Of a stretch of DNA of 25,899 nucleotides, positions 4,650-20,847 are shown piece by piece. Position 1 is the first letter of the stretch; each line of letters starts with the position of its first letter. This DNA comes from a virus. Where the stretch lies: positions 1 through 25,899 of the IMG/VR virus record IMGVR_UViG_3300042450_000011, one strand, 5' to 3'. A program made the position numbers and the translations under genes. The notes below the pieces were generated by a model. That model made no database searches and had not been told where the DNA came from. It worked only from the letters and a program-made list of their open reading frames with translations.

Positions 4650-5993
4650 ATGTTAGAAGTTATCGAGAAGCTAGACCATATCGAAGCAGCTAACACTGCC
4701 AAGATCGAAGAAATCAAAAGCGAAGTAAGTGTATCTCTGGAAGCTGTACGCACAGAAGTTGAGGAGAAAGTAGCCGCCCTAGAAGCTAAGGTTGCATCTA
4801 TTCAAATCCCTTCAATCATTCAGCCTAAAGCTAAGACCGTCTCGCAAGATGTGAACCGCAGAGTTAAGGAACAACTGAGCGACTTCACGAAGTCTAGTAG
4901 CCGGATGGAAAAAGAAATTAGCCTGTTCGAGAGCGATTCCCAGTATGACGCTTTCTTAAAAGAAGCCGCTGGCCTACAGGGTTCTGGCGCGGGTGTCGGC
5001 GGTCGTACTGCCTATGATCCTGTATTCGTTGCATTGCGTTTGGCTAATCCTATGCGCGGCGTATCACGCACCGTTGCAACTGATGGCTCTACCTATCAAT
5101 TCCGCGCCAAAATTGGCAACACTGGTCCGGCTTGGGGCTATCCTATCCAGAACAACGGATCGGCTACCACAGTCGCAACCAATATCTGGCAACTAACTTT
5201 GCAAGATATTAATGTTCAGTTCCCATTGCGTACCGCTGCATTGGACGATATTGACGGTCTGGAAAGCAACGTAGTCTCAGATATGTTGGTCGAGTTTAGT
5301 GAGCAAGAAGGCATCTCAATGATCCAGAACAACGATCAAAGTTCCGATGCTGGCGTAATCGCTGCTACTGGTGGTATCAATGGTCTGCGCGGTCTGAATC
5401 AGTACGCTGGTGGTAACGGTGCCTACGCTCCGGGTGTAACCACTACGGCTGCATACGGAACAAGCGGTACAGGCTCTAGCAGTGGATTGTCTAGCATCGC
5501 TACCTACGATCAGTTGGTAACGAATGGCAACGCCGCTGGCGCAGCAAACATCCAGTACAAGGACGTTATTAACTTCATCTATGCTTTGCCACAACAGTAT
5601 TGGACTACCTCTGCACGTTTCGTTATCAATCCAATCTTGCTTTCACAGATTCGCGGATTGACCGATGACAACGGCACGCCAGTATTCGAGCGTATGAGTC
5701 CTCTGGAAACAGACGGAATCGTAGGTCGCTTGTGTGGATTTGATGTTGTTGTAAACAAGTATCTGGATACCCCTAGTTACGCTGGCGTAAACAAAAATAA
5801 CCTTTACCCAATGTATTTTGGTGACTGGTCACGCGGGCATACCATCGTCGATCGTTTGAATATGGTTCTCCGCAGGTACGATCAGACTCTCCCCGGATTT
5901 ATTACTTTCTTCGGCGAGAAGCGTCTATGTACCAGCGTGGTTGATCCTTTCAGCATCATCCGTTACCGTTCAACCTATACGGCTAACGACTAA
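4650..5993 (+). CDS. Major capsid protein 1, with N-terminal delta (scaffold) domain
   Basis: This 447-residue protein is a major capsid protein of the HK97 fold. Residues 1 to about 105 form a charged, coiled-coil-like delta domain (VEEKVAALEAKVASIQ), which in HK97 acts as scaffold and is removed by the protease. The mature-like part begins near K107-E108 (KEAAGLQGSGAGVGG) and runs through family-like elements such as 'ANPMRGVSRTV' and 'PGFITFFGEKR'. A cleavage point near residue 107 is inferred by analogy with HK97, where it follows residue 103. An AAAGGA site (4637-4642) precedes the ATG. The gene follows the protease by 11 bases and is followed by a terminator-like hairpin. The next gene is a clear paralogue. 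Confidence 0.92.
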   Translation: MLEVIEKLDHIEAANTAKIEEIKSEVSVSLEAVRTEVEEKVAALEAKVASIQIPSIIQPKAKTVSQDVNRRVKEQLSDFTKSSSRMEKEISLFESDSQYDAFLKEAAGLQGSGAGVGGRTAYDPVFVALRLANPMRGVSRTVATDGSTYQFRAKIGNTGPAWGYPIQNNGSATTVATNIWQLTLQDINVQFPLRTAALDDIDGLESNVVSDMLVEFSEQEGISMIQNNDQSSDAGVIAATGGINGLRGLNQYAGGNGAYAPGVTTTAAYGTSGTGSSSGLSSIATYDQLVTNGNAAGAANIQYKDVINFIYALPQQYWTTSARFVINPILLSQIRGLTDDNGTPVFERMSPLETDGIVGRLCGFDVVVNKYLDTPSYAGVNKNNLYPMYFGDWSRGHTIVDRLNMVLRRYDQTLPGFITFFGEKRLCTSVVDPFSIIRYRSTYTAND

Positions 5994-6043: not shown

Positions 6044-7081
6044 ATGAGCCTAATTCTCGAAGCAGTAAAAACAGCATTGTCCGAGGGTCGGGCTGATGTT
6101 AGTTTGAAGGAAGCAGCCGGACTTACGGGTTCTGGTACTGGTGTCGGTGGTCGCGTTATTTACGATCAAGCCTTTGCGCCATTGCGATACGGCAACCCCT
6201 TTCGTATGTGTGGCGTTCGTGAAATAACCACTATCGGTTCTGATGAAGCCTTCGTAGTCAAGACAGGTAACGCTACAGTAATCCAAACCAGCACCACGAA
6301 CCCGTGGGGCTACAGCGTAAAGAATGATGTAGGCAACTACGCCACATCTTTCTGGCAAGTCTCTGTTAAATCTATTAATGCAGTTGTGCCTATTCGGACG
6401 GCAATTATGTCCGACATTAACGGACTCGACGAGAGCATTGTATCGGACATCGCTTTAGAATTTGCACAGCAAGAAGCCCTTTCTATGATGCTGAACAATG
6501 ACCAATCTAGCGGAGCATCAACACCCCAAACTGGTCAGGTTGACGGGCTGCGCGGATTAAATTTATATGATGGAAGTACCTCGGCAGCATCTTTCGGCAC
6601 TAGCGGATCAGCAACTACTAACGGTCGGCACACGATGCTACAGACAGCCGCAGCGTCTAAAACTGTTGTTACTTACAACGACCTTACCGCTTTAGCTTCT
6701 GCACTTCCTGCACAGTATTGGATGAGTCCGTGTACAGCGTGGATGATGCACCCAAACACAATTCAATTGTTTAGGCAATTGAAAGACACCGCTGGATTCC
6801 CAGTTCTATTTGAATCAGGTGATGATGATGGTGGTTCCGTATGTAGCATTTTTGGATTCCCCGTCATTCCAAACCCATACATGAGCCAATATGCGGCAAG
6901 TCGCTACCCTATCTATCTAGCCGCTTGGGATAGCTTTATGACCATTGCCGATAACGAGATGATGAGTATTCAACGTCTTGAGCAGTATCAGCCCGGATTT
7001 ATTTCTCTGTATGCAGAGAAGCGGGTATGTTCAACCATTCGTGATGTATTTGCTGGTGTGCGCGCAGTCTGTCCAGCATAG
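6044..7081 (+). CDS. Major capsid protein 2, delta-less paralogue
   Basis: This 345-residue protein aligns along its full length with the mature part of capsid protein 1. Shared blocks are KEAAGL.GSG.GVGGR..YD..F..LR..NP.R near the start, a central SDI/SDM..EF..QE..SM..NNDQSS, then DGLRGLN and ALP.QYW, and finally PGFI...EKR.C near the end. Before the KEAAG block it has only about 21 residues instead of about 106, so it lacks the scaffold domain. It keeps an AAAGGAAA ribosome site (6031-6038). It may be a second shell or vertex subunit co-assembling with protein 1, or a duplicate whose role has changed. The intact frame and the conserved core argue against a pseudogene. Confidence 0.85.
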   Translation: MSLILEAVKTALSEGRADVSLKEAAGLTGSGTGVGGRVIYDQAFAPLRYGNPFRMCGVREITTIGSDEAFVVKTGNATVIQTSTTNPWGYSVKNDVGNYATSFWQVSVKSINAVVPIRTAIMSDINGLDESIVSDIALEFAQQEALSMMLNNDQSSGASTPQTGQVDGLRGLNLYDGSTSAASFGTSGSATTNGRHTMLQTAAASKTVVTYNDLTALASALPAQYWMSPCTAWMMHPNTIQLFRQLKDTAGFPVLFESGDDDGGSVCSIFGFPVIPNPYMSQYAASRYPIYLAAWDSFMTIADNEMMSIQRLEQYQPGFISLYAEKRVCSTIRDVFAGVRAVCPA

Positions 7082-10682: not shown

Positions 10683-12635
10683 ATGATGGGAATGTTAGCA
10701 AGACTTGGCGTAGTTCTGGGGCTGGACTCAGCAGAGTTTCAGAAGGGCATTGAGGGTGCTGATCGCAGTCTCGCAAAATTTGCTCATAATGCACAGCAAG
10801 CCGCAACTCTAGCAAGTGCCGCGTTCGTTGCAATGACCTACAAGGCGTTATCTTACGGTGACGCTATCTCTGATACTGCCAAAGCTAATGAAGTCGCTGT
10901 AGCCTCTATACTAGCCCTTTCTAAGGGTTTAGCACAAAACGGGGGTAACGCAGACAACGCTACTAAACTTATATCATCATTTACTGCAAAGGTCGGCGAA
11001 GCCGCACAGGGTTCACTAGGCGCACAACAAGCCTTCGGTCGTTTGGGGGTTTCATTAAATGATCTAGCTAAACTAAGCCCCGATAAACTTTTTGACAAGA
11101 CGCTATATTCTATAGCTGCACTACAAGACCCTATTACTAGAAACGCTGCGGCTATGGAGATGTTCGGTCGCGCTGCGAAGGGGGTGGACTTTGTAGGTTT
11201 GGCTAACGGAACCCAAGTGGCGCGGGATAAGTTTAAGGCTTATGCGGCGGCGGTAGAAGAAGCCGGAAGGTTGCATGATGCTTTAAGCGCAAAAGCTGGT
11301 CAGACAATGTTGATGTTCACTAACGCGGTTATCCCTACGCTTGGGACGCTGTTCGATCACTGGAATAAAAATACCGCAGCGTCCAAATTCTTTTTTGAGA
11401 AATTAGAATGGTTTGTTAAACATGCGGCGGTTGGAATAAATACGCTGGCATCGGCGGTGGCTCAACTTGCCGATACTCTAGTATTTATGGGGTCATCATT
11501 AGCTAAAGTATTATCTGGTGACTTCAAAGGTATATCAGCAGCCTACGATGAATTAAAGGCAAAGAATCAAGCAACGTGGGCTGACAATCAGAAATTGATG
11601 CAGAGTATTTTTCACCCAGAAGAACAGGCTCCCTCTGGTGCGGCTGGTACGGGAAGATCTGTAACCGCTGCAAAAGACCCAGACGCTGCAAAGGCTTTAG
11701 CCCTAGATCATCAGATCGGTCTGGCAGAAAGACTATCCGCAGAATACATAAGGCAGAACAAACTTGCTTTAGATCAGGTAACGACTCGCGCTGAGATAGC
11801 GGTATACGCGCAACGCGAACAGAAAGTAAGAATGGACGTTCTTAATGTAGAACAACAACTTAGCAACCAAATCGCACAAGTAGAATTAAAGATTCTTGAC
11901 GCTCGAATTATGGGCAATGAGAAGCTGGCGGTAGTCCTAGAGCAGCAGCGAAACATCATACAAGAACAGGGAAGGATGTACGTCGAGCAGACCGAATCAA
12001 CGATCCGCAACATACAGTCCCAACAATATTCATTTACTTTTGGTTGGGAGAAATCTTTTAATCAGTTTAATGATGACGCTCAGAACTATGCCAATATGGG
12101 AGAGAACGCTTTTAGTATGTTCACCAATACTATTGGATCAGCGATAGATGAATTCGCAGCTAACGGAACCAAATCATTTGGCAAATTTACGCTAAGTATT
12201 ATAGCTGACATAGCTAAAATGATCGCTAAGTTCTACGCAATGCAATTGGCAATGATGGCGGTAGGATTTATTACGAGTGCGTTTGGTGGTGGTGGAATGG
12301 GGAAGGGTGGCTCAATGAAGGGCGGGTTTATGCCTTCTGGGATGACTGGCACTGGATTTGCAGCAGAAGGCGGAGAGATCGGCGGCCCAACTATCGTGGG
12401 AGAGAAAGGCCCAGAACTTTTTATCCCGTCCGGAAGGGGGAATGTCATACCGAACAATAGACTGTCGGATGCTCTTAGCCCTAGCACTCAACCATCGGTT
12501 GTATATAATGGCCCGTACATCGCGCAAATGTCAGCCATAGACACCCAATCAGCACTTCAGTTCCTATCGAAAAACAAAATGGGTGTATGGGCGGCGAATC
12601 AATCCGCGAACCGATCCGTTCCAGTGAACAGGTAA
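10683..12635 (+). CDS. Tail tape measure protein
   Basis: This 650-residue protein sets tail length and is probably ejected with the DNA. It is helix-rich with Ala/Gln-rich stretches (residues about 20-130 and 330-450). Its C-terminal part shows the typical tape-measure ending: a hydrophobic 'MAVGFITSAFGGGGMGKG' segment and then 'AEGGEIGGPTIVGEKGPELFIPSG'. At about 1.5 angstrom per residue the tail would be near 100 nm. Three in-frame ATGs lie close together (10683, 10686, 10692). The AAGGGG at 10674-10679 is better spaced for 10686, so the true start may be one codon later. The internal 'LTLATLASAAFVAMTYK'-like region may be membrane-active. It follows the chaperone pair directly. Confidence 0.92.
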   Translation: MMGMLARLGVVLGLDSAEFQKGIEGADRSLAKFAHNAQQAATLASAAFVAMTYKALSYGDAISDTAKANEVAVASILALSKGLAQNGGNADNATKLISSFTAKVGEAAQGSLGAQQAFGRLGVSLNDLAKLSPDKLFDKTLYSIAALQDPITRNAAAMEMFGRAAKGVDFVGLANGTQVARDKFKAYAAAVEEAGRLHDALSAKAGQTMLMFTNAVIPTLGTLFDHWNKNTAASKFFFEKLEWFVKHAAVGINTLASAVAQLADTLVFMGSSLAKVLSGDFKGISAAYDELKAKNQATWADNQKLMQSIFHPEEQAPSGAAGTGRSVTAAKDPDAAKALALDHQIGLAERLSAEYIRQNKLALDQVTTRAEIAVYAQREQKVRMDVLNVEQQLSNQIAQVELKILDARIMGNEKLAVVLEQQRNIIQEQGRMYVEQTESTIRNIQSQQYSFTFGWEKSFNQFNDDAQNYANMGENAFSMFTNTIGSAIDEFAANGTKSFGKFTLSIIADIAKMIAKFYAMQLAMMAVGFITSAFGGGGMGKGGSMKGGFMPSGMTGTGFAAEGGEIGGPTIVGEKGPELFIPSGRGNVIPNNRLSDALSPSTQPSVVYNGPYIAQMSAIDTQSALQFLSKNKMGVWAANQSANRSVPVNR

Positions 12636-13319: not shown

Positions 13320-13921
13320 ATGTTATTCCACCAGTTGACGGCACTAATAACATTCGCTACGCGGACTTCCTTCGGATCACTACGCCGGAGGAGGTTTTTT
13401 TAATATCATCAGCCCCGTCTACACTTACCATTCCAGAAATAGACGCGCAACCATTCTCTGGTCTAGGGATATTATTAAAAGCGGGAGATGCGACTAGAGA
13501 TATAAAGTCTACAGCCAACGAGACTACATTCTCTTTTGCTGGAATTGATACGGCGTTTCTAGGCTTCGTATTAAGTAAGAATATAAAGGGTTCGCAGATC
13601 GAGGCGTGGAAAGGATTTTTCGGCACTAATGGAGAGTTGCTAACAACGGGCGGCACTGGTGGGCTATATCAATATTTTAACGGTTATATAACGAGCTTTG
13701 CTATTTCTGAGGAGTGGATAGAAGAAGCTAGATCGTATATTGGTGTTATAACGGTATCAGCCTCATCAATTCAAATGATTTTGCAGAATAGAACAGCCGG
13801 AAGATATACCAATGATAATGCGTGGCAATTTTTTGCTCCGGGGGATACGAGCATGAATAGAGTGGCTTTTATAACCACTATTAATTATAACTTCGGCAAA
13901 GATGCTAAAGCGAATTCGTGA
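13316..13921 (+). CDS. Minor tail protein (DUF2163/BR0599-like)
   Basis: This 201-residue protein resembles the DUF2163/BR0599-type minor tail proteins by its C-terminal pattern 'LQNRTAGRYTND..W..FAPGDTSM.RVAFI', a Gly/Arg/Asn-rich turn followed by a proline-Asp loop. The preceding part is beta-rich (TFSFAGIDTAFLGFVLSKNIKGSQIEAWKGFFG). It contains no cysteine, unlike lambda gpL. It would form part of the tail tip complex. ATG 13316 overlaps the upstream stop, and its own stop overlaps the GTG of the next gene (GTGA). The match is by pattern only. Confidence 0.6.
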   Translation: MNVIPPVDGTNNIRYADFLRITTPEEVFLISSAPSTLTIPEIDAQPFSGLGILLKAGDATRDIKSTANETTFSFAGIDTAFLGFVLSKNIKGSQIEAWKGFFGTNGELLTTGGTGGLYQYFNGYITSFAISEEWIEEARSYIGVITVSASSIQMILQNRTAGRYTNDNAWQFFAPGDTSMNRVAFITTINYNFGKDAKANS

Positions 13922-14361
13922 TAAGAAAATCTAATAAATTTGACAAAGCCGACTGGACTGAAATGCTGCGAATGTTTAAGCTGGAAAGCGACGTCGAGTT
14001 CCTTCGGGCATTAGAGAACCCAGACTGGTGGAGTCAGTTATTTGATACCATTAATTCTGGGCTAGGGATAATTTTTATAGAGCCGGGAAAGGGGTTGATA
14101 ATGGGGATGATAGTCCCTTCTTTGTGGTGTAATAAGACGTTCGGACTACATGAATTGGCGTGGTATGTGAAGCCAGAATACAGGAAGTCTACTGTAGGTT
14201 ATAGGCTATTTAATGAGTTTGTGAAATATGGAAACCAATTGAAGGATGATGGTAGGGTGACATATTTAGTTCTGGGTAAATTGCATAATAGCCCATCTTT
14301 GAATTACGGGAAATATGGATTTAAGAAAATGGAAGAAACGTGGATAAAAGATCTTTCTTAA
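13918..14361 (+). CDS. GNAT-family N-acetyltransferase
   Basis: This 147-residue protein looks like a GNAT acetyltransferase, which transfers acetyl from acetyl-CoA to an amine. The core is 'GLIMGMIVPSLWCNKTFGLHELAWYVKPEYRKSTVGYRLFNEFVKYG'. There 'ELAWYVKPEYR' is the beta4 strand, and 'RKSTVGYRL' stands at the CoA pyrophosphate loop (usually R/Q-x-x-G-x-G/A; here the first Gly is replaced). The end 'LNYGKYGFKKMEETW' is the usual beta6/beta7 segment. The start is GTG, overlapping the preceding stop; the end overlaps the next gene by 22 bases. It sits where lambda carries K and I. The substrate is unknown; it could be a virion protein, a host protein or a small molecule. Confidence 0.78.
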   Translation: MIRKSNKFDKADWTEMLRMFKLESDVEFLRALENPDWWSQLFDTINSGLGIIFIEPGKGLIMGMIVPSLWCNKTFGLHELAWYVKPEYRKSTVGYRLFNEFVKYGNQLKDDGRVTYLVLGKLHNSPSLNYGKYGFKKMEETWIKDLS

Positions 14362-17300
14362 ATAAAAGAACGTGGGTGCTTTTTGTCGGGCTTAGTACGC
14401 TGACATTCACAAGTCACGCTTATGCGTTTATTGTTACGTTAGCGACCTTTCTTGCAGTATCGCTTACAATATCGATGACTTTAGCCACAGCAATATCTAT
14501 GGCAATCAGTATGGTTGTATCGATGGCTATATCGTTTGCAGTCTCAGCGGTTATAGGTGGCCCGAACGCTCCCGGTGGTGGGGAGCAGCGCGATCCGGGA
14601 AACAGAACCCAGATACCTCCGGCTACATCTAACAAACTTCCTGTTGTCTATGGTGATTCGTGGATCGGTGGAACTGTAATAGATTTAAGCATAACCGATA
14701 ACGATCAGAAACTATTTTACGTTTTAGCTTTGAGCGAGGTTACGAATACCAACCCCGGTCAGACTGCCGATACAATTACTTTCGGGGATATTTACTTCGC
14801 TGGAAAGAAATGCGTATTTGATGAGACAAACAAGTATCAGGTTAACTCTCTGTTAGATGAGTCCACGGGAGAATCTGAGACGAATGTGAAAGCTAAAATT
14901 AATATATACCTCTATAGCAACGGCTCAAATACGCCGACAAATTCAGATCAAACAGCAATTCAAGTAATGTCAAATTCCAAGCTAATTTATAAATGGGATG
15001 AAACAAAGTTAATGACCAATTGCGCTTTCGCAATTGTTGTCCTTACTTATAGCGTCACAGCAAATATTAGGGGCTTGGCTCAGACTAGATTCCAAATAAA
15101 GAATAGCAGACACAAGCCGGGGGAATGTTTCTCAGACTTCTTGACAAACACTCGGTATGGCGCAGCAATCCCTTCAACTCAGATTGACACCACAAGCCTT
15201 ACGGCACTGGACGTTTATTCGGACGAGTCATTCACCTATACAGATTATAGTGGAGTGGTAACAACCCAGACTAGATTTAGGTTTGATGGGGCGGTAGACG
15301 CGGCTCGGACTATCATGAGTACGCTCCAGAACATGACCTCTAGCTGCGATTGCTTATTAAGATATGATGAGGTAACGGCTAAGTGGGGCGTGATCGTCCA
15401 GAAGCCCACATACACCGTAGCAATGGCGATAAATGATAGCAATATTATATCCTCGATACAGGTTACGCCTATTGACCTATCTAATTCATTCAATATTGCA
15501 GAGGTCAAGTTCCCCGACAAGTCTAATCAAGATGCGTTTAATACTTCAACTTTTGATCTAGCCCAAATTGATCCGGCACTTTTATTCCCTAATGAGCCAA
15601 TCAATAAGCAATCAATAACAGTTCCGTTCTGTAACAATAATGTACGCGCACAATATCTAGCTAACCGATTCTTAAAGGCTTCGCGGGAGGATTTGCAGGT
15701 CACTTGTTCTGTTGGGTTTGATGGACTCCAATTAGAAGCTGGTGATGTAATGACATTAACCAACGCTAATTATGGATGGGTAGATAAACTATTCAGAACT
15801 AACAAAGTATCTCAGACCTTTAAAGATGATGGGGCGATTGTAGTAAATCTGCTGCTGATGGAATTTAATCCAACCGTCTATGATGATGTGGCTATTACCG
15901 AATTTCAACCAAGTCCTAACACGGGTATCGGCGATCCGCTAGTATTTGGAACAGTGCCGCCACCAACAGTAGAGCAAGAATATCCGACTGCGGTTAACCC
16001 TTTATTCTTGGTGCAAGTAACGACTCCGGCTGCTGGTATCTCTCAGTATGCAGAACTCTACTACACTGCTTTCGCTGATCCTACAGAATCGCAGTTAATC
16101 TTTGCAGGTACTAGCGAGGTACAGGCTAACGGAACTCCGTGGAATACTAATACAGTTTTACCGTTAATCTCTTTAGCTGGCATACCTTCTGGAAATTGGT
16201 ATTTCGTCACTCGAATGATGAATAGTCTGGGAGCGTCTAGCTTCAGTCTGCCTAGTGCCGTTTTTGAATGGCGGCCCACGACCTTCCAATACTCAGAACA
16301 ATACTTAGTTATCGCTTACGCTGACGATATAGAAGGCGCGGGCTTCAATCTTAATCCTAGAGGGAAGTATTACTACGGATTGATTAATCAAAGCAGCATA
16401 ACGCCTAGTATTGATCCAGCAGCATACTCTTGGTATCTAGCCGAACCTGCTTTCGGAACGACCATCTATCCTGTTTACACAAATAGAACGGGAAGAAAAA
16501 TATCTTTTGACACAGGCTTCGCTATCTACGCTTCCGGCACTGCGGCCTTCATTCCGTATGACACAGCTTTATTCGATCCAACTCTCTGGGCGGCATTGCC
16601 TGACGGGACAAACTTTATTGACCTAGACGCAAGAACAGGGCAGTTATTAAAGGTAGGGACTACGAGTGTCGGAACTGGTGAAATATCTGTCTCTAATAAT
16701 CCTGATGGGGTCGTAGTCGCTTCACTTGCAAAACTTCCTTACGTCTGGGGTGAGGGGGTTTATACCTATACCACTTCGGCGGCTACTATCACCATTGACA
16801 TTTATGGGCGGGTGGTAGGCTTCACCGCGCCCGATACTTTTGAGATGACTATATCGACATTCACAGCGACAAGTGGACAGACATTCTTCCCGGTTTCTAG
16901 GGATGTAGCCTATATAGTTGGGCAGTGTTTCGTATTTAATCAAGGAACATTGTGCCAGACTTCAGAATACACGGACGCGGCTGGCGGGGTGACTTTCGGA
17001 ACAGGAGTAGTATTAGATAATATCATTACTGTTATATCTTTCAGATCGACTAATTCTGCTACAGGTTCTTATGCTTCATTCTCTCGATACTCGGCAACTC
17101 TAACGGATGCCGGACAGTATGTGGCTTCCGGTTTCACTTTAATCTCAGGATACGAACTTCTATTCTTGAATGGGACGGTAATGAATGAGCAAGATTACGA
17201 TATAGTCGGGCAGACCATTACAAACTTCCCTAGCATCACTACAGGCGAACTTGAGGTGATTCAGTGGACTGCGAATAATCTAAATCTGCCGAACGGAACG

Positions 17301-17513
17301 CCCGTTAACGTAGTAGTTCAAACCATAATAGGTCAGGTAACATACCCATTCTCATTCACTTCGGGTGGTTTTAATCTTTATCAAAACGGTGTATTATTAA
17401 AGTTAGGAACGGACTTTACGACTGTAGTTGGTGCATATACATTATCTAATGCTCCTGATACAGTTAACAACGTGATTCTCCAACAAACATTCGCACGAGC
17501 GGGGGCAGCATGA
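14340..17513 (+). CDS. Large tail tip protein (gpJ-like receptor/host-specificity protein)
   Basis: This 1057-residue protein is the tail-tip or central-tip protein of gpJ type. Residues about 12-70 are very hydrophobic (TLATFLAVSLTISM, MVVSMAISFAVSAVIGG), like a membrane-insertion or signal-like segment. They are followed by 'NKLPVVYGDSWIGGTVIDLS', the usual gpJ entry. The middle carries a 'GECFSDFLTNTRYGAAIPS' element, as in gpJ ('P..i...ll...rYG'), and the C-terminal part has fibronectin-like and fibre modules. Late segments such as 'GFNLYQNGVLLKLGTDFTTVVG' are common in phage fibres. The GTG start has GGAAG four bases upstream and lies within the acetyltransferase gene. The stop overlaps the next gene (ATGA). 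Confidence 0.85.
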   Translation: MDKRSFLNKRTWVLFVGLSTLTFTSHAYAFIVTLATFLAVSLTISMTLATAISMAISMVVSMAISFAVSAVIGGPNAPGGGEQRDPGNRTQIPPATSNKLPVVYGDSWIGGTVIDLSITDNDQKLFYVLALSEVTNTNPGQTADTITFGDIYFAGKKCVFDETNKYQVNSLLDESTGESETNVKAKINIYLYSNGSNTPTNSDQTAIQVMSNSKLIYKWDETKLMTNCAFAIVVLTYSVTANIRGLAQTRFQIKNSRHKPGECFSDFLTNTRYGAAIPSTQIDTTSLTALDVYSDESFTYTDYSGVVTTQTRFRFDGAVDAARTIMSTLQNMTSSCDCLLRYDEVTAKWGVIVQKPTYTVAMAINDSNIISSIQVTPIDLSNSFNIAEVKFPDKSNQDAFNTSTFDLAQIDPALLFPNEPINKQSITVPFCNNNVRAQYLANRFLKASREDLQVTCSVGFDGLQLEAGDVMTLTNANYGWVDKLFRTNKVSQTFKDDGAIVVNLLLMEFNPTVYDDVAITEFQPSPNTGIGDPLVFGTVPPPTVEQEYPTAVNPLFLVQVTTPAAGISQYAELYYTAFADPTESQLIFAGTSEVQANGTPWNTNTVLPLISLAGIPSGNWYFVTRMMNSLGASSFSLPSAVFEWRPTTFQYSEQYLVIAYADDIEGAGFNLNPRGKYYYGLINQSSITPSIDPAAYSWYLAEPAFGTTIYPVYTNRTGRKISFDTGFAIYASGTAAFIPYDTALFDPTLWAALPDGTNFIDLDARTGQLLKVGTTSVGTGEISVSNNPDGVVVASLAKLPYVWGEGVYTYTTSAATITIDIYGRVVGFTAPDTFEMTISTFTATSGQTFFPVSRDVAYIVGQCFVFNQGTLCQTSEYTDAAGGVTFGTGVVLDNIITVISFRSTNSATGSYASFSRYSATLTDAGQYVASGFTLISGYELLFLNGTVMNEQDYDIVGQTITNFPSITTGELEVIQWTANNLNLPNGTPVNVVVQTIIGQVTYPFSFTSGGFNLYQNGVLLKLGTDFTTVVGAYTLSNAPDTVNNVILQQTFARAGAA

Positions 17514-18292
17514 CAAATGCTTTTAATCTAAGTCAGTTAGCAAATAATACGAACTCATCGGGGCAGGTCACTCTAACTACGGGGGTTGCTGGAACGCTTC
17601 CTGTAGCTAACGGCGGCACTGGTGCAGCAACTTTAACTGCTAACAATCTATTAGTCGGGGCGGGAACTAGCGCGGTCACAGGCATTGCTGCGGGAACATC
17701 CGGCAACGTATTAACTTCTAATGGCACGACTTGGGCTTCTACTGCTGCTGCTGGCGGGGGCTTTGCCAATATGGTTGCCTATGTATCTCCGGGAACATGG
17801 ACTCTCCCACCGGGAATAACAAAAGCAAAAGTTACTGTAGTGGGGGCTGGTGGTAGGGGTTACGGAGTTTCTGGTCCAACTAATGTTTCTGGCCCCGGTG
17901 GAGGTGGTGGCGGTGGTGGAACTTCAATTATGTATATGAATGTAACTGGTCCGGTTGCTTATGCTGCTGGTACTGGTACATCTTCATTCGGCCCAACTCC
18001 AAGTGGTACAATTTCTGCAACTGCCGGTTCTGCTAGCCCCCCCGGAGCCGGTGGTGGCGGCGGCGCGGGTTCTGCGGGAACGCTGAATATACAAGGGAAC
18101 CCCGGAACGGCTGGTAGTGGCCCGGCGATTGGGGGAAAGGGTGGCGGGTCAACTGTTGGCGGGGGTGGCTTAGGCGGGGGCGGTCCCGGTCAAGTGGGTG
18201 GAAATTATGGTGGCGGTGGTGGTGGCAAAGGTCCGGGTACGGGACAAAATGGCGGCGCTGGCGCACCCGGTGTAGTTGTAATCGAATACTAA
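17510..18292 (+). CDS. Glycine-rich tail adhesin / fibre
   Basis: This 260-residue protein has two parts. Residues 1 to about 85 carry a fibre motif (LPVANGGTGAATLTANNLLVG, then a VLTSNGTTWAS segment) common near attachment parts of tail fibres. From 'PGTWTLPPGITKAKVTVVGAGG' the rest is glycine-rich, with many G-runs and Pro-Gly steps, and ends 'GAPGVVVIEY', a known ending of glycine-rich phage proteins. The pattern recalls gp38-type adhesins with polyglycine-II helices, which expose receptor-binding loops. No chaperone gene is evident nearby. It starts by ATGA overlap with the tip gene and would be presented at the tip. Receptor specificity cannot be inferred. Confidence 0.75.
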   Translation: MTNAFNLSQLANNTNSSGQVTLTTGVAGTLPVANGGTGAATLTANNLLVGAGTSAVTGIAAGTSGNVLTSNGTTWASTAAAGGGFANMVAYVSPGTWTLPPGITKAKVTVVGAGGRGYGVSGPTNVSGPGGGGGGGGTSIMYMNVTGPVAYAAGTGTSSFGPTPSGTISATAGSASPPGAGGGGGAGSAGTLNIQGNPGTAGSGPAIGGKGGGSTVGGGGLGGGGPGQVGGNYGGGGGGKGPGTGQNGGAGAPGVVVIEY

Positions 18293-18300
18293 GGAATAAT

Positions 18301-18522
18301 ATGAAAGCACTCATAGCATCAGAAGAAACGGTATCTCTAGCAGATGGAACTACAGGAGTCCGTCTATGCCAAGTCGAAGAAGATAAAAATATCTTTGTGG
18401 TTAGTACGGCATTATTCTGGGTTGACTGCGATAAAGACGTAACGCCTGATACGCACTATTGGAACGGAAAAAACATTACATTAAAACCACAAGAGGTAAT
18501 ACTTGAGACACCTGCAACCTGA
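18301..18522 (+). CDS. Small protein of unknown function before the oxygenases
   Basis: I do not recognise this 73-residue protein. It is beta-rich, with no signal peptide or membrane segment, and contains 'SEETVSLADGTTGVRLCQVEEDKNIFVV'. A somewhat similar stretch (GETINLSDNTFIARIDQ... VLVV) opens the third oxygenase (19687-20283), which hints at a shared small module. An AAGGA site lies six bases upstream. The end overlaps the next gene's start by 20 bases. A cytosolic or fibre-associated role is possible. Confidence 0.6.
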   Translation: MKALIASEETVSLADGTTGVRLCQVEEDKNIFVVSTALFWVDCDKDVTPDTHYWNGKNITLKPQEVILETPAT

Positions 18523-19132
18523 TCTATTAGATTATCTGCAAGAAAAGAAGAAGTACGGGCAAGCGTCTTGGTTATTTCAAACAGATAGGATAGAGCCTTT
18601 TGCCTATGCTGAAACCTTCACTCCGGCTCAGTGCAAAACGATTATCCAGATCGGTAAAAATGCAATATTGGATAAAGCTATAGTAGGTGGCGGGTCTGGT
18701 AAGTATGACGAGACTTGCCGCAAGAGTAGAACTAGCTGGCTATCTCCGGCAGACGGCAACGAATGGATATTTCAAAAGTTAACTGATACCGCAATGACTT
18801 TGAATGATCGGTTCTTTAAGTTTGATCTATTAGGCTTTGCAGAAGGCATCCAGTTCACGGAGTATGAATCTCCGGGTGGCAAGTACGATCCTCATGTGGA
18901 CTGTATGTATAACGGTAAGATCAGGAAGTTATCTATCTCAGTACAGCTATCGGATGAGAATGAATACGAGGGTGGGGATGTAATCTGTAACTATGGGAAT
19001 GAGATAGTTATGCCTCGCACTCAGGGGATGGCTTTAGCTTTTCCTAGTTATGCTCTACACGGGGTCAAGCCTGTAACCAAAGGCACTCGCTATAGTCTGG
19101 TAGCTTGGATCACTGGCCCACAGTTCAAATGA
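18503..19132 (+). CDS. 2OG-Fe(II) oxygenase 1 (PKHD/prolyl-hydroxylase-like)
   Basis: This 209-residue protein has the jelly-roll iron-binding motif of 2-oxoglutarate/Fe(II) dioxygenases, which hydroxylate a substrate using O2 and 2OG. The HxD pair is H131/D133 (YDPHVDC), the distal His is H186 (YALHGVKPV), and the 2OG-binding Arg is R196 (GTRYSL), ten residues later as usual. The core is 'LSISVQLSDENEYEGGDVIC', as in P4H/PKHD-type enzymes. The TTG start is supported by AAGAGG (18491-18496) six bases upstream. The end, with 'WITGPQFK', closely matches the ending of the next gene. The substrate is unknown; prolyl-like hydroxylation of a phage or host protein is one option. Confidence 0.88.
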   Translation: MRHLQPDLLDYLQEKKKYGQASWLFQTDRIEPFAYAETFTPAQCKTIIQIGKNAILDKAIVGGGSGKYDETCRKSRTSWLSPADGNEWIFQKLTDTAMTLNDRFFKFDLLGFAEGIQFTEYESPGGKYDPHVDCMYNGKIRKLSISVQLSDENEYEGGDVICNYGNEIVMPRTQGMALAFPSYALHGVKPVTKGTRYSLVAWITGPQFK

Positions 19133-19680
19133 AATATAGATATTATTATTACAATAATGTTTTGTCTAAAATAGAACGGGAAGAAATAATTATTCATTCA
19201 AGTTCGTGTAAAAAATTAATTGATACCCCGGCTAAAGACGTAAATAATGTCTCTATTAGAAAAACAGAAACCTCTACTTATTTACTTAAAGATATTGATG
19301 GAAGATTGGATGGAGTTTTAGATTTAATTCGGAATACTAATCAAGATGTGTTTGGTTATGATTTGTTCACAAGAAATCCGTCCGGCTTTAATATAAACAA
19401 ATACAAAGAAAATAAAAATGAATATCCGTATCATATTGACGAGCAAGAACTTGGGTCGGCTTCGGATGTAAAGCTGACGGCAATTTTGAATTTATCCAAA
19501 GACAAATATTTAGGGGGAGAATTTCAAATGTTTTTAGGAGATAACCATATAGTTAAAGAAATTAACAACCCTGGAGATTTGCTAATATTCCCATCAAATA
19601 TTTACCATAGGGTTCTGCCAGTAACCTCCGGGGAACGTATCACATTGAGTATGTGGTTCTATGGCCCGAACTATAAATAG
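19129..19680 (+). CDS. 2OG-Fe(II) oxygenase 2, unusually AT-rich
   Basis: This protein has 183 residues from ATG 19129, which overlaps the upstream stop (ATGA); an earlier in-frame ATG at 19105 would add eight. It carries H102/D104 (YHIDEQ), distal H160 (IYHRVLPV), and R170 (GERITL), all at family spacing. The C-terminus 'MWFYGPNYK' parallels 'AWITGPQFK' of the preceding gene, so the two are probably diverged relatives. Bases 19141-19440 are only about 27% G+C by hand count (82 of 300), against about 38-52% in nearby lines of the flanking oxygenases. That suggests it came from a different source. The substrate is unknown. Confidence 0.87.
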   Translation: MKYRYYYYNNVLSKIEREEIIIHSSSCKKLIDTPAKDVNNVSIRKTETSTYLLKDIDGRLDGVLDLIRNTNQDVFGYDLFTRNPSGFNINKYKENKNEYPYHIDEQELGSASDVKLTAILNLSKDKYLGGEFQMFLGDNHIVKEINNPGDLLIFPSNIYHRVLPVTSGERITLSMWFYGPNYK

Positions 19681-19686
19681 GACAAT

Positions 19687-20283
19687 ATGTTACAAGAGAT
19701 GAAAGTCGGCGAGACTATAAACCTATCAGACAATACGTTCATCGCTAGGATAGATCAGGGATGGGCTAATGAGAAGGGGGTTCTGGTAGTTCGTGCTGAC
19801 GGGGCAATGACTCCAACTATAGAAAAAGAATTATTCGCTCCTGAGATACACCAGAAGATTGTAGAGTTCATTAAGTCTGGGGCGTTTCTAGTTGAGAACG
19901 ATCCTAATGAATTCAAGAGGACTGGCGCACATAACATCCCATTCTTCTCATACATCCACCAGCAACTAGCGGAAGCAGCTTCAGAGATATTCGGAGAGAA
20001 GGTCAAGCCTTCCTATGTCTATACAAGTCTTTACGGGGATGCTGGCGTATGCCCTTTTCATACCGACCGCCCACAGTGCAAGTACACAATCGACTACTGC
20101 ATAGATCAGGACGAGACTTGGGATATATGGGTAGATGATAAGCCTTACACCCTACAGCCTAACGATGCTCTCTGCTACAGTGGAACGGATAGCCCTCACT
20201 TCAGAGAAAAGATTAAAGGGAAGTATTGCAACCTAGCTTTCTTCCACTTTGTTCCTGTAGATTTTGTCGGGAAACTAGATTAA
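19687..20283 (+). CDS. 2OG-Fe(II) oxygenase-like protein 3
   Basis: This 198-residue protein has a clear HxD (H125/D127 in CPFHTDRPQ) and distal His (H171 in SPHFREKI), followed by 'LAFFHFVP', an arrangement seen in 2OG-Fe(II) oxygenases of aquatic phages. The Arg normally about ten residues after the distal His is absent; C181 stands there, with R173 and K179 nearby, so 2OG binding may differ. Its N-terminal 45 residues (GETINLSDNTFIARIDQGWAN) lie outside the oxygenase core and resemble the small protein at 18301. An AGGAC-type weak ribosome site is at 19679-19683. Function and substrate are unknown. Confidence 0.8.
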   Translation: MLQEMKVGETINLSDNTFIARIDQGWANEKGVLVVRADGAMTPTIEKELFAPEIHQKIVEFIKSGAFLVENDPNEFKRTGAHNIPFFSYIHQQLAEAASEIFGEKVKPSYVYTSLYGDAGVCPFHTDRPQCKYTIDYCIDQDETWDIWVDDKPYTLQPNDALCYSGTDSPHFREKIKGKYCNLAFFHFVPVDFVGKLD

Positions 20284-20358: not shown

Positions 20359-20847
20359 GTGGCAGTATTTAACAAGAACTCCCTATCTCAAGTCAGCGGA
20401 TTCGACAATCCGATTATCGCTGGCGAACTCGTATACCAACAGTCTACCTTCTGGAATCTCGCGTTAACTAGCGATGATGGCGTAACGCCTGTAAATCTAA
20501 CTGGCGCGACCATAGACGCTCAGATTGTTCGTAGAACCCTATCCAATGTAAAAGACTCTCGCTACGGCCTGACTTTTGACATAACGAATTACACCCCGAC
20601 ACCTGACGCAATTCCTTTAACTATTGTCAACCGTGATAACGCTGCTGGATCGTTCACGCTTATCATAGACGATAGCTCGTGGGACTTGGTTGATGATGAC
20701 GCTCAACTGGCAATAAATTCAATTAATGGCGCGGGATTCTCTGGCCGCATTAAGATAGGCTTTGCCGCTGCGGGAAGCACTCCGGCAGAGGACAATATAA
20801 TCTTCCTTCTCTTTCTTATTCGCAGTGATGGCATTGTAAAGATCTGA
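20359..20847 (+). CDS. Structural protein, baseplate/fibre-associated (BppU-like pattern)
   Basis: This 162-residue beta-rich protein looks like the N-terminal part of baseplate or fibre-linked proteins: 'TFWNLALTSDDGVTPVNLTGATIDAQIVRR' matches the usual 'T..L.....G.P.DLTG.TA..QIR' opening. The middle has 'RDNAAGSFTLIIDDSSWDLV', and the end 'DNIIFLLFLIRSDGIVKI'. The GTG start has a good AAGGAG (20347-20352). It precedes a small protein and two large fibres, so it may anchor them. Exact role is inferred. Confidence 0.6.
   Translation: MAVFNKNSLSQVSGFDNPIIAGELVYQQSTFWNLALTSDDGVTPVNLTGATIDAQIVRRTLSNVKDSRYGLTFDITNYTPTPDAIPLTIVNRDNAAGSFTLIIDDSSWDLVDDDAQLAINSINGAGFSGRIKIGFAAAGSTPAEDNIIFLLFLIRSDGIVKI

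Follow-up and report, generated by a model that had tools for sequence, protein, structure and literature searches.

What do three consecutive genes for 2-oxoglutarate (2OG)-Fe(II) oxygenases do in the receptor-recognition region of a phage? The question is raised by the viral record IMGVR_UViG_3300042450_000011, of which positions 1 to 25,899 were analysed (this whole stretch is hereafter called the window). The three genes, which we designate Ox1, Ox2, and Ox3, lie between a tail-tip gene and a conserved gene, in a slot whose content is exchanged among related loci. Oxygenases in this slot are associated with glycine-rich adhesin tips, and the tips that accompany Ox1- and Ox3-type enzymes are enriched in proline. 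We lean, with modest confidence, towards a tip-plus-modifier cassette in which Ox1 and Ox3 would hydroxylate prolines of the tip. The analysis shows that the genes encode oxygenases, that the cassette is exchanged, that Ox1 and Ox3 are paired or fused, which fold the tip adopts, and that its proline content follows the enzymes; the tip as the substrate, proline as the residue, and an effect on host range are the parts that we infer. The features on which the argument depends are as follows.

14340..17513, plus strand: J-like tail-tip protein, left border of the slot (its PF13550 match is below the cut-off of that family)
17510-18292, plus strand: whole adhesin, with a glycine-rich C-terminal tip
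17510..17764, plus strand: N-terminal part of the adhesin (MTNAFNLSQLANN...), which stays constant when tips are swapped
17774..18292, plus strand: glycine-rich tip of the adhesin, with 15 Pro and 8 Pro-Gly steps; the proposed substrate
18301..18522, plus strand: 73-residue chaperone-like gene between the tip and the oxygenases; its position alone suggests the chaperone role
18503..19132, plus strand: Ox1, a 2OG-Fe(II) oxygenase resembling PKHD hydroxylases and prolyl 4-hydroxylases (P4H); H131, D133, H186, R196
19129..19680, plus strand: Ox2, an optional 2OG-Fe(II) oxygenase; PF13640, GC content 0.319
19687..20283, plus strand: Ox3, a divergent 2OG-Fe(II) oxygenase of the mislabelled 'ferrochelatase' family; H125, D127, H171
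20359..20847, plus strand: conserved gene, right border of the slot, used as an anchor (449 and 540 relatives in viral contigs)

Identity of Ox1 and Ox2

A first-pass annotation of this DNA had read three such oxygenases at 18503-20283. All three open reading frames (ORFs) are present there and differ from one another, and their HxD...H iron triads are intact at the residues it had listed (H131/D133/H186 in Ox1, H102/D104/H160 in Ox2, and H125/D127/H171 in Ox3). The arginine that it had noticed ten residues past the distal histidine is likewise found in Ox1 (R196) and Ox2 (R170), and both C-termini follow the pattern W..GP.[FY]K. Ox2 is numbered from the ATG at 19129, which overlaps the stop codon of Ox1; counted from a TTG at 19105, its triad would be 110/112/168. 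Ox1 itself starts with TTG and has no in-frame ATG among its first 60 codons; its homologue in L004 has an ATG at the position aligned to this TTG (loci are designated by L numbers and contigs by G numbers).

Ox1 and Ox2 match PF13640 with E-values of 1.7e-13 (51.8 bits) and 1e-13 (52.5 bits), respectively, where the cut-off is 27, and both match phrog_61 (3.6e-31 for Ox1). A chance motif was considered and rejected: the bare pattern HxD-x(40-65)-H occurs in four of the 32 stop-to-stop frames of 120 or more residues in the window, three of these four being the Ox genes, and the PF13640 matches come in addition. In an alignment of 12 sequences, which includes Ox1 and Ox2, the iron triad and the C-terminal arginine predicted to bind 2OG are invariant. 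The solved relatives of Ox1 are PiuC (8.2e-8), a transmembrane P4H (1.3e-4), and another P4H (0.002). The only PADLOC match of Ox1 and Ox2 was to a generic 2OG model.

The PKHD hydroxylases (PiuC, YbiX, and Sbal_3634) and P4H enzymes have PF13640, the HxD...H triad, and the C-terminal arginine in common with Ox1 and Ox2. They differ in that the window enzymes fall far below the curated NCBIfam cut-offs, the best score being 61.1 bits against 143, and we therefore rejected a PiuC/YbiX equivalog. The usual contexts of PKHD and P4H enzymes are iron uptake or collagen, whereas the window enzymes stand in a phage tail-tip cassette. Compared with L003, the ratio of nonsynonymous to synonymous substitution (dN/dS) is 0.068 for Ox1 and 0.065 for Ox3, and both genes are under purifying selection. 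Ox2 has a GC content of 0.319, compared with 0.443 and 0.449 in its neighbours, and is absent from L003/L016, the closest oxygenase-bearing relative found. It is probably an optional addition that arrived recently.

Ox3 is identified as an oxygenase and not a ferrochelatase

Ox3 belongs to phrog_2954 (1.2e-24), which is labelled ferrochelatase. At E <= 1, it has no match to a ferrochelatase Pfam family and none to a 2OG Pfam family. Its AlphaFold2 model was built from seven sequences and has a mean predicted local distance difference test score (pLDDT) of only 67. All 26 Foldseek matches of the model at E <= 0.001, which include PHD2, mimivirus L230, and PBCV-1 vCPH, are 2OG-type oxygenases as judged from their titles and general knowledge. 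VIA-align superimposed the model on SnoN with a Z score of 13.8 and a root-mean-square deviation (rmsd) of 3.0 over 156 residues, and on prolyl hydroxylases with Z scores of 11-12. H125, D127, and H171 are invariant among 14 diverse sequences of the family, and hhalign aligned the triad region of Ox3 with that of Ox1 (E 8.9e-5, probability 60). Because of the modelled fold, the triad, and a natural fusion to an Ox1-type domain (described below), we identify Ox3 as a divergent 2OG-Fe(II) oxygenase despite the Pfam result. We rejected the ferrochelatase identity, since the fold and the invariant triad point to an oxygenase.

Four proteins that carry the ferrochelatase label, S-PM2p237, HTVC023P gp67, PRSM4_049, and S-RIM32 gp209, did not match any Pfam family at E <= 0.1, and the 'ferrochelatase' of S-SCSM1 has a C-terminal PF13640 domain. 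PF13640 also occurs under the annotations 'DNA endonuclease V' in S-PM2 and 'DNA endonuclease' in S-CAM8. The families phrog_2954, phrog_3531, phrog_274, and phrog_2297, labelled 'ferrochelatase' or 'DNA endonuclease (V)', are thus matched by 2OG oxygenases, and the same names occur in GenBank; these PHROG labels look wrong. Phage 'ferrochelatases' (phrog_2954, phrog_3531, and T4-GC 615) stand beside 2OG oxygenases in pelagiphages and cyanophages. Published work assigns such pairs to haem or auxiliary metabolism; we reinterpret the 'ferrochelatase' as an oxygenase that partners Ox1 and is linked to an adhesin. PBCV-1 vCPH and mimivirus L230 are also viral and have the same fold as the Ox3 model, with a remote sequence relation (11% identity). 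Both come from viruses of eukaryotes and have collagen-type substrates.

The slot is exchanged together with its oxygenases

We defined the slot as the DNA between the J gene and gene 20359. Loci were sampled with the J protein (27 loci) and with gene 20359 (the best 80 of 449 and the best 80 of 540 relatives), and the window itself and one contig of a metagenome-assembled genome (MAG; L128) were taken in. After 27 loci lacking J had been dropped, 137 had both borders; removal of 32 duplicates left 105 distinct slots, 12 of which are empty. Two MAG contigs have a relative of gene 20359, which we do not take as evidence of a host.

Five loci (L014, L015, L017, L018, and L031) have J genes 79-92% identical, each with a different slot content, and the same adhesin N-terminus precedes their differing tips. 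The N-terminus is thus constant while the tip and the small gene that follows it change. In L014 and L018 (same contig as L005), the tip is of a non-glycine kind and the slot lacks an intact oxygenase; what survives of Ox3, beside gene 20359, is its last 18-28 codons. The tip was therefore exchanged along with the enzymes, through a breakpoint that fell within Ox3, whichever the direction. Outside its slot, L005 has another oxygenase-like ORF (11302-11829, minus strand).

A tip was called glycine-rich when its best stretch of 80 residues reached a cut-off of 30% Gly. Oxygenases were detected with 26 profile seeds chosen by reading, of which 18 match an oxygenase-linked PHROG (some only phrog_274 or phrog_2954, whose labels are disputed), six are annotated as 2OG oxygenases in their records, and two (L8d and L5ox) came from alignment or reading. 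The 19 oxygenase-bearing slots were scanned singly, except L002, L146, L149, L166, L177, L180, L182, and L190. Slots with a glycine-rich tip contain oxygenases in 13 of 35 cases, compared with 6 of 58 for other tips (Fisher one-sided p=0.0025). The difference persists when a related family with four members counts as one (13/35 vs 3/55, p=0.0002) and when the window is excluded (12/34 vs 6/58, p=0.0046). The first-pass annotation had named a lack of correlation with the adhesin across relatives as grounds for giving up its idea, and on this point the oxygenases do track the glycine-rich tips. The link is real, neither exclusive nor obligatory.

Tips associated with Ox1 and Ox3 are rich in proline

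Proline was measured in the last 170 residues of type-A glycine-rich tips. Left out were the type-B glycine-rich tips of L017, L019, L054, and L157, which have no oxygenase and 1.2-3.5% Pro, and that of L182 (two oxygenases, 5.3% Pro). In the slot sample, tips with Ox1, Ox3, or their fusion contain on average 6.5% Pro (2.4-10%, n=10), compared with 2.0% (1.2-3.5%, n=19) in the oxygenase-free ones (p=4.9e-5). A further 33 tips from the fusion scan described below, non-redundant and none near-identical to the slot set, contain 4.1-10%, with no overlap with the enzyme-free 1.2-3.5% (p=2.3e-9). Among the 20 amino acids, only Pro separates the tips in this way, the next p values being 0.011 (slot set) and 0.0066 (fusion set). 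Clustering related tips (44-60 clusters) gave p values between 1e-9 and 6e-8. GC content is not raised in the enzyme-bearing loci (0.393 and 0.367 vs 0.414).

Tips on other backbones agree, with 9.4% Pro in L004, 8.2% in L007, and 11.2% in L011. Glycine-rich tips accompanied only by other oxygenase types are not proline-rich (1.8, 3.5, and 1.8% in L047, L052, and L175). In the enzyme-associated tips, Asp is lower, Asn is not higher, and Lys is not significantly higher (p=0.06 and 0.52). A Pro-Gly-Thr-Trp/Phe-Thr entry motif is present in 34 of 43 enzyme-associated tips and in 1 of 19 others; it was spotted by eye first, so that the comparison is post hoc. The first-pass annotation had suggested prolyl-type hydroxylation of the Pro/Gly-rich adhesin by the oxygenases. 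This idea survives insofar as Ox1/Ox3-type enzymes track the proline content of the tip. A single role shared by all three enzymes is not supported: Ox2 is missing in L003/L016 and has a low GC content, and the tips of L047, L052, and L175 are not proline-rich. Hydroxylation of peptidyl proline, the activity that defines a prolyl 4-hydroxylase, would be in keeping, indirectly, with the proline content of the linked tips and with the P4H/PKHD relatives.

Ox3 and Ox1 are naturally fused in some relatives

An Ox3-Ox1 fusion of 372-391 residues is present in seven distinct slots (L103, L133, L146, L149, L161, L166, and L190). Both triads are intact in all seven, and a PHROG check was made on L133, L103, and L161. 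Each fusion follows a glycine-rich tip and a small ORF, with an extra oxygenase gene in between in L149. Because Ox1 and Ox3 are fused in some loci and constantly adjacent in others, they appear to act on one substrate. In HTVC023P-type pelagiphages, the 'ferrochelatase' is described as always accompanied by an adjacent 2OG oxygenase (PMC9599517).

A separate scan was anchored on the fusion (best 80 of 245); 70 loci had at least 1.2 kb upstream, and 10 shorter ones were dropped. A glycine-rich tip lies within 1.5 kb of the fusion in 44 of the 70. A Nol-like carbamoyltransferase adjoins the Ox1-Ox3 pair or fusion at L236, where it directly precedes the fusion, and at L272, L273, and L296.

The tip and its small partner

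The AlphaFold2 model of the tip, built from 36 sequences, has a mean pLDDT of 90.4. Among solved structures, Foldseek matched it best to the Pam3 fibre 7ypx (TMq 0.72, rmsd 3.4, E 1.5e-5), followed by the Bxb1 tail tip, and the profile of the tip family also matches the Pam3 fibre by sequence (3.7e-10). The adhesin tip is thus predicted to be a Pam3-type glycine-rich receptor-binding tip, with a TNF-like and glycine-rich domain fold. According to the Pam3 paper, the glycine-rich stem of this fibre domain is conserved, its distal end varies and is proposed to bind the receptor, and a phage chaperone, gp25, aids assembly. Pam3 gp24/gp25 resembles the window in the tip fold, the profile match, and a partner gene for the fibre. 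The two differ in that the Pam3 paper, in the parts consulted, describes a fibre chaperone and mentions no modifying enzyme.

The first-pass annotation had placed the adhesin just upstream of the oxygenases, which needs amending: a 73-codon ORF (18301-18522) intervenes before Ox1. Homologues of this ORF occupy the same position in L003, L004, and L007, and L013 has a longer form. Its best match among solved structures has an E-value of 1.3, and it has a weak PHROG match to a family without an assigned function; the search of solved structures with the L013 form found no relative. To judge from its position, this ORF sits where a fibre chaperone might be.

Related arrangements in named phages

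We picked 18 stretches of 17 named records from the match lists and scanned all of them for glycine-rich ORFs. Four of them, HTVC023P, P-RSM4 (9.4% Pro), S-CAM8 (8.2%), and S-SSM5 (8.8%), encode a proline-rich, glycine-rich protein on the upstream side of an Ox1-Ox3 pair. The genes concerned are HTVC023P gp59-62 in a Pelagibacter phage, PRSM4_046 in a Prochlorococcus phage, and SXCG_00049 and SSSM5_040 in the Synechococcus phages S-CAM8 and S-SSM5. HTVC023P has four tandem glycine-rich genes (7.6-12.9% Pro), and two other genes precede the enzymes. In P-RSM4, S-CAM8, and S-SSM5, Ox1 and Ox3 are separate neighbouring genes, and a Nol-like carbamoyltransferase lies on the opposite strand between the glycine-rich gene and the pair. 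In S-8S56 (L041 2-1414, found via Ox1), a collagen-like Gly-X-Y tail-fibre gene is followed by a hypothetical gene and then by two 2OG oxygenases, a classic setting for a prolyl hydroxylase, here in an isolate.

Proposed function and alternative explanations

We propose that an adhesin tip, a small chaperone-like partner, and dedicated protein-modifying enzymes form a receptor-binding cassette that would be swapped as a whole between J and gene 20359. Ox1 and Ox3, taking 2OG and O2 as co-substrates, would hydroxylate prolines of the co-encoded glycine-rich, Pam3-like tip before or during assembly of the fibre or virion. The resulting hydroxyprolines may change how the tip loops form hydrogen bonds, how stable they are, or the chemistry by which they contact the receptor. 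Ox2 would be an optional extra enzyme. A broader proposition, to which we give slightly less than even credence, is that exchangeable cassettes of aquatic phages encode a polyglycine receptor-binding tip together with a dedicated Ox1-Ox3 pair that hydroxylates its prolines, which in some phages a neighbouring Nol-like enzyme would perhaps also O-carbamoylate; the marine pair of '2OG oxygenase and ferrochelatase' would then be virion modification machinery for host recognition and not auxiliary metabolism. The 2OG oxygenases are common and unexplained genes of marine phages, hitherto classed with 'ferrochelatase' as auxiliary metabolic. If the proposal is true, phage receptor recognition includes post-translational chemistry that is invisible in the sequence and that genome-based prediction of host range misses, and a gene label in current use needs correction. 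The same arrangement occurs in cultured phages, which makes a direct test feasible. The open-access literature that we searched held no proposal of tail-fibre hydroxylation by these phage enzymes. Viral P4HA is described in PMC9301287 as abundant, with a use that 'remains cryptic', and collagen as able to form part of viral tail fibres.

Several observations weigh against tip hydroxylation. No oxygenase is present in the slot for 22 of the 35 glycine-rich tips, and six of the 58 other tips have one (L027, L139, and L168/L177/L180/L182 at the cut-off of 0.30). The association also varies with the Gly cut-off (p=0.00094 at 0.27, 0.044 at 0.33, and 0.16 at 0.36; 0.072 at 0.33 with the window excluded). 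L026 has Ox1 without Ox3 and a tip of 2.4% Pro, and the J protein of enzyme-bearing contigs itself contains slightly more Pro than that of the others (4.73 vs 4.40%, p=0.015). Pro-Gly was rejected as a specific target motif, as 29% of Pro precede Gly against a Gly background of 31%. A fifth glycine-rich gene of HTVC023P, beside another 2OG gene, has 1.8% Pro. Among 11 named records with an Ox3 relative, seven (S-T4, S-SCSM1, S-CREM1, S-RIM32, S-PM2, ACG-2014f, and AG-345-E08) show no comparable glycine-rich tip within their 10-19 kb stretches; the nearest thing to one in S-T4 is a Gly/His-rich fibre (4.7% Pro). By the rule of the fusion scan, 26 of the 70 loci lack a glycine-rich tip. In L205, L211, L213, L265, and L252-254, it is borderline, truncated, or farther off, and L236 has the carbamoyltransferase there. 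The surroundings of 18 of the 26 are apparently replication genes, and the three neighbours checked are DNA polymerase (L208 and L203) and exonuclease (L227). Two of ten replication-context contigs, their sequence covered wholly or mostly, have a type-A tip elsewhere (G006, 7.1% Pro; G011, 5.9, 5.3, and 3.5%), as does G008, the contig of L236 (4.1%). The other eight of these 11 contigs, covered to the same extent, had no type-A tip; three have a Gly/Ala-rich ORF judged by eye not to be one.

The presence of the fusion in replication contexts therefore suggests that some enzymes of the family may have another substrate. Its neighbours there, together with the relatives of Ox1 in CRP-810 and of Ox2 in Mosig that lie amid replication genes and the seven named records without a nearby tip, favour the usual published reading, in which such genes merely sit in a plastic late region and have auxiliary or nucleic-acid roles (in the 2OG pool, the repair of DNA or RNA, base oxidation, or host metabolism). 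Effects on the 2OG level were proposed, and DNA repair cited, by Sullivan 2010 (PMC3037559), and the 2OG oxygenase and 'ferrochelatase' are presented as auxiliary metabolic genes in PMC11561400 and PMC9599517. We regard this reading as unlikely here. It predicts neither the co-swapping of the tip nor a Pro difference limited to tips with Ox1/Ox3-type enzymes, and the four relatives of Ox3 labelled ferrochelatase have no ferrochelatase Pfam match. A Tet/JBP DNA-base oxygenase was rejected as well: Ox1, Ox2, and Ox3, like the other window proteins, had no such match at E <= 1, and the fusion scored 15.5 bits against a cut-off of 34.9.

The tip or another fibre could also be modified in a different manner, the hydroxyl being an intermediate (e.g., for an O-carbamoyl or glycosyl group) or another residue being hydroxylated. 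The carbamoyltransferase between the glycine-rich gene and the pair in P-RSM4, S-CAM8, and S-SSM5 is in keeping with a further group, as is its place directly before the fusion in L236, whose contig has a glycine-rich tip. However, no carbamoyltransferase was found among the slot ORFs of the window, the gene is on the opposite strand in the three isolates, and the Asp, Asn, and Lys contents given above argue against another residue; we consider this explanation quite improbable. More improbable still is linkage alone, in which a surface protein or receptor of the host would be the target of the enzymes and the proline-rich tips would mark the lineage first linked. The slot is a recombination hot spot, and relatedness among the fusion-bearing tips is not fully removable, both of which would suit linkage; against it, the Pro association holds on other backbones too (L004/L007, L011, HTVC023P, and three cyanophages). 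Hydroxylation of tip prolines by Ox1 and Ox3 thus remains the reading that we favour.

Other features of the window and oxygenase clusters elsewhere

The window contains a head-and-tail module with terminase, portal, protease, two head-protein genes, tape measure, and the J-like tail tip. The adjacent genes at 4650-5990 and 6044-7078 each match a major-head-protein PHROG (phrog_10). In the L027 slot, there is a large insertion, where a 233-residue ORF at 13810-14511 adjoins a phrog_81-type oxygenase; from its His boxes, we take this ORF to resemble a fatty-acid desaturase.

The first-pass annotation had regarded three oxygenases in a row as unusual, which did not hold up: clusters of 4 to 10 are found in other aquatic phages. 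In S-CREM1, eight genes annotated as 2OG oxygenases form an unbroken run with a JmjC gene, and no fibre gene visibly adjoins it. L008-L010 have four oxygenase genes consecutively. In S-PM2, oxygenase-family genes are intermixed with a short tail fibre and a tail-assembly chaperone, and S-CAM8 has six amid tail-fibre genes. The largest cluster, in L011, comprises ten oxygenase-family genes in ~7 kb downstream of a glycine-rich adhesin-like gene, with two other ORFs interspersed; seven match phrog_61 or phrog_81, two match only phrog_274, and one matches phrog_2954/3531 (we dispute the labels of phrog_274 and phrog_2954/3531).

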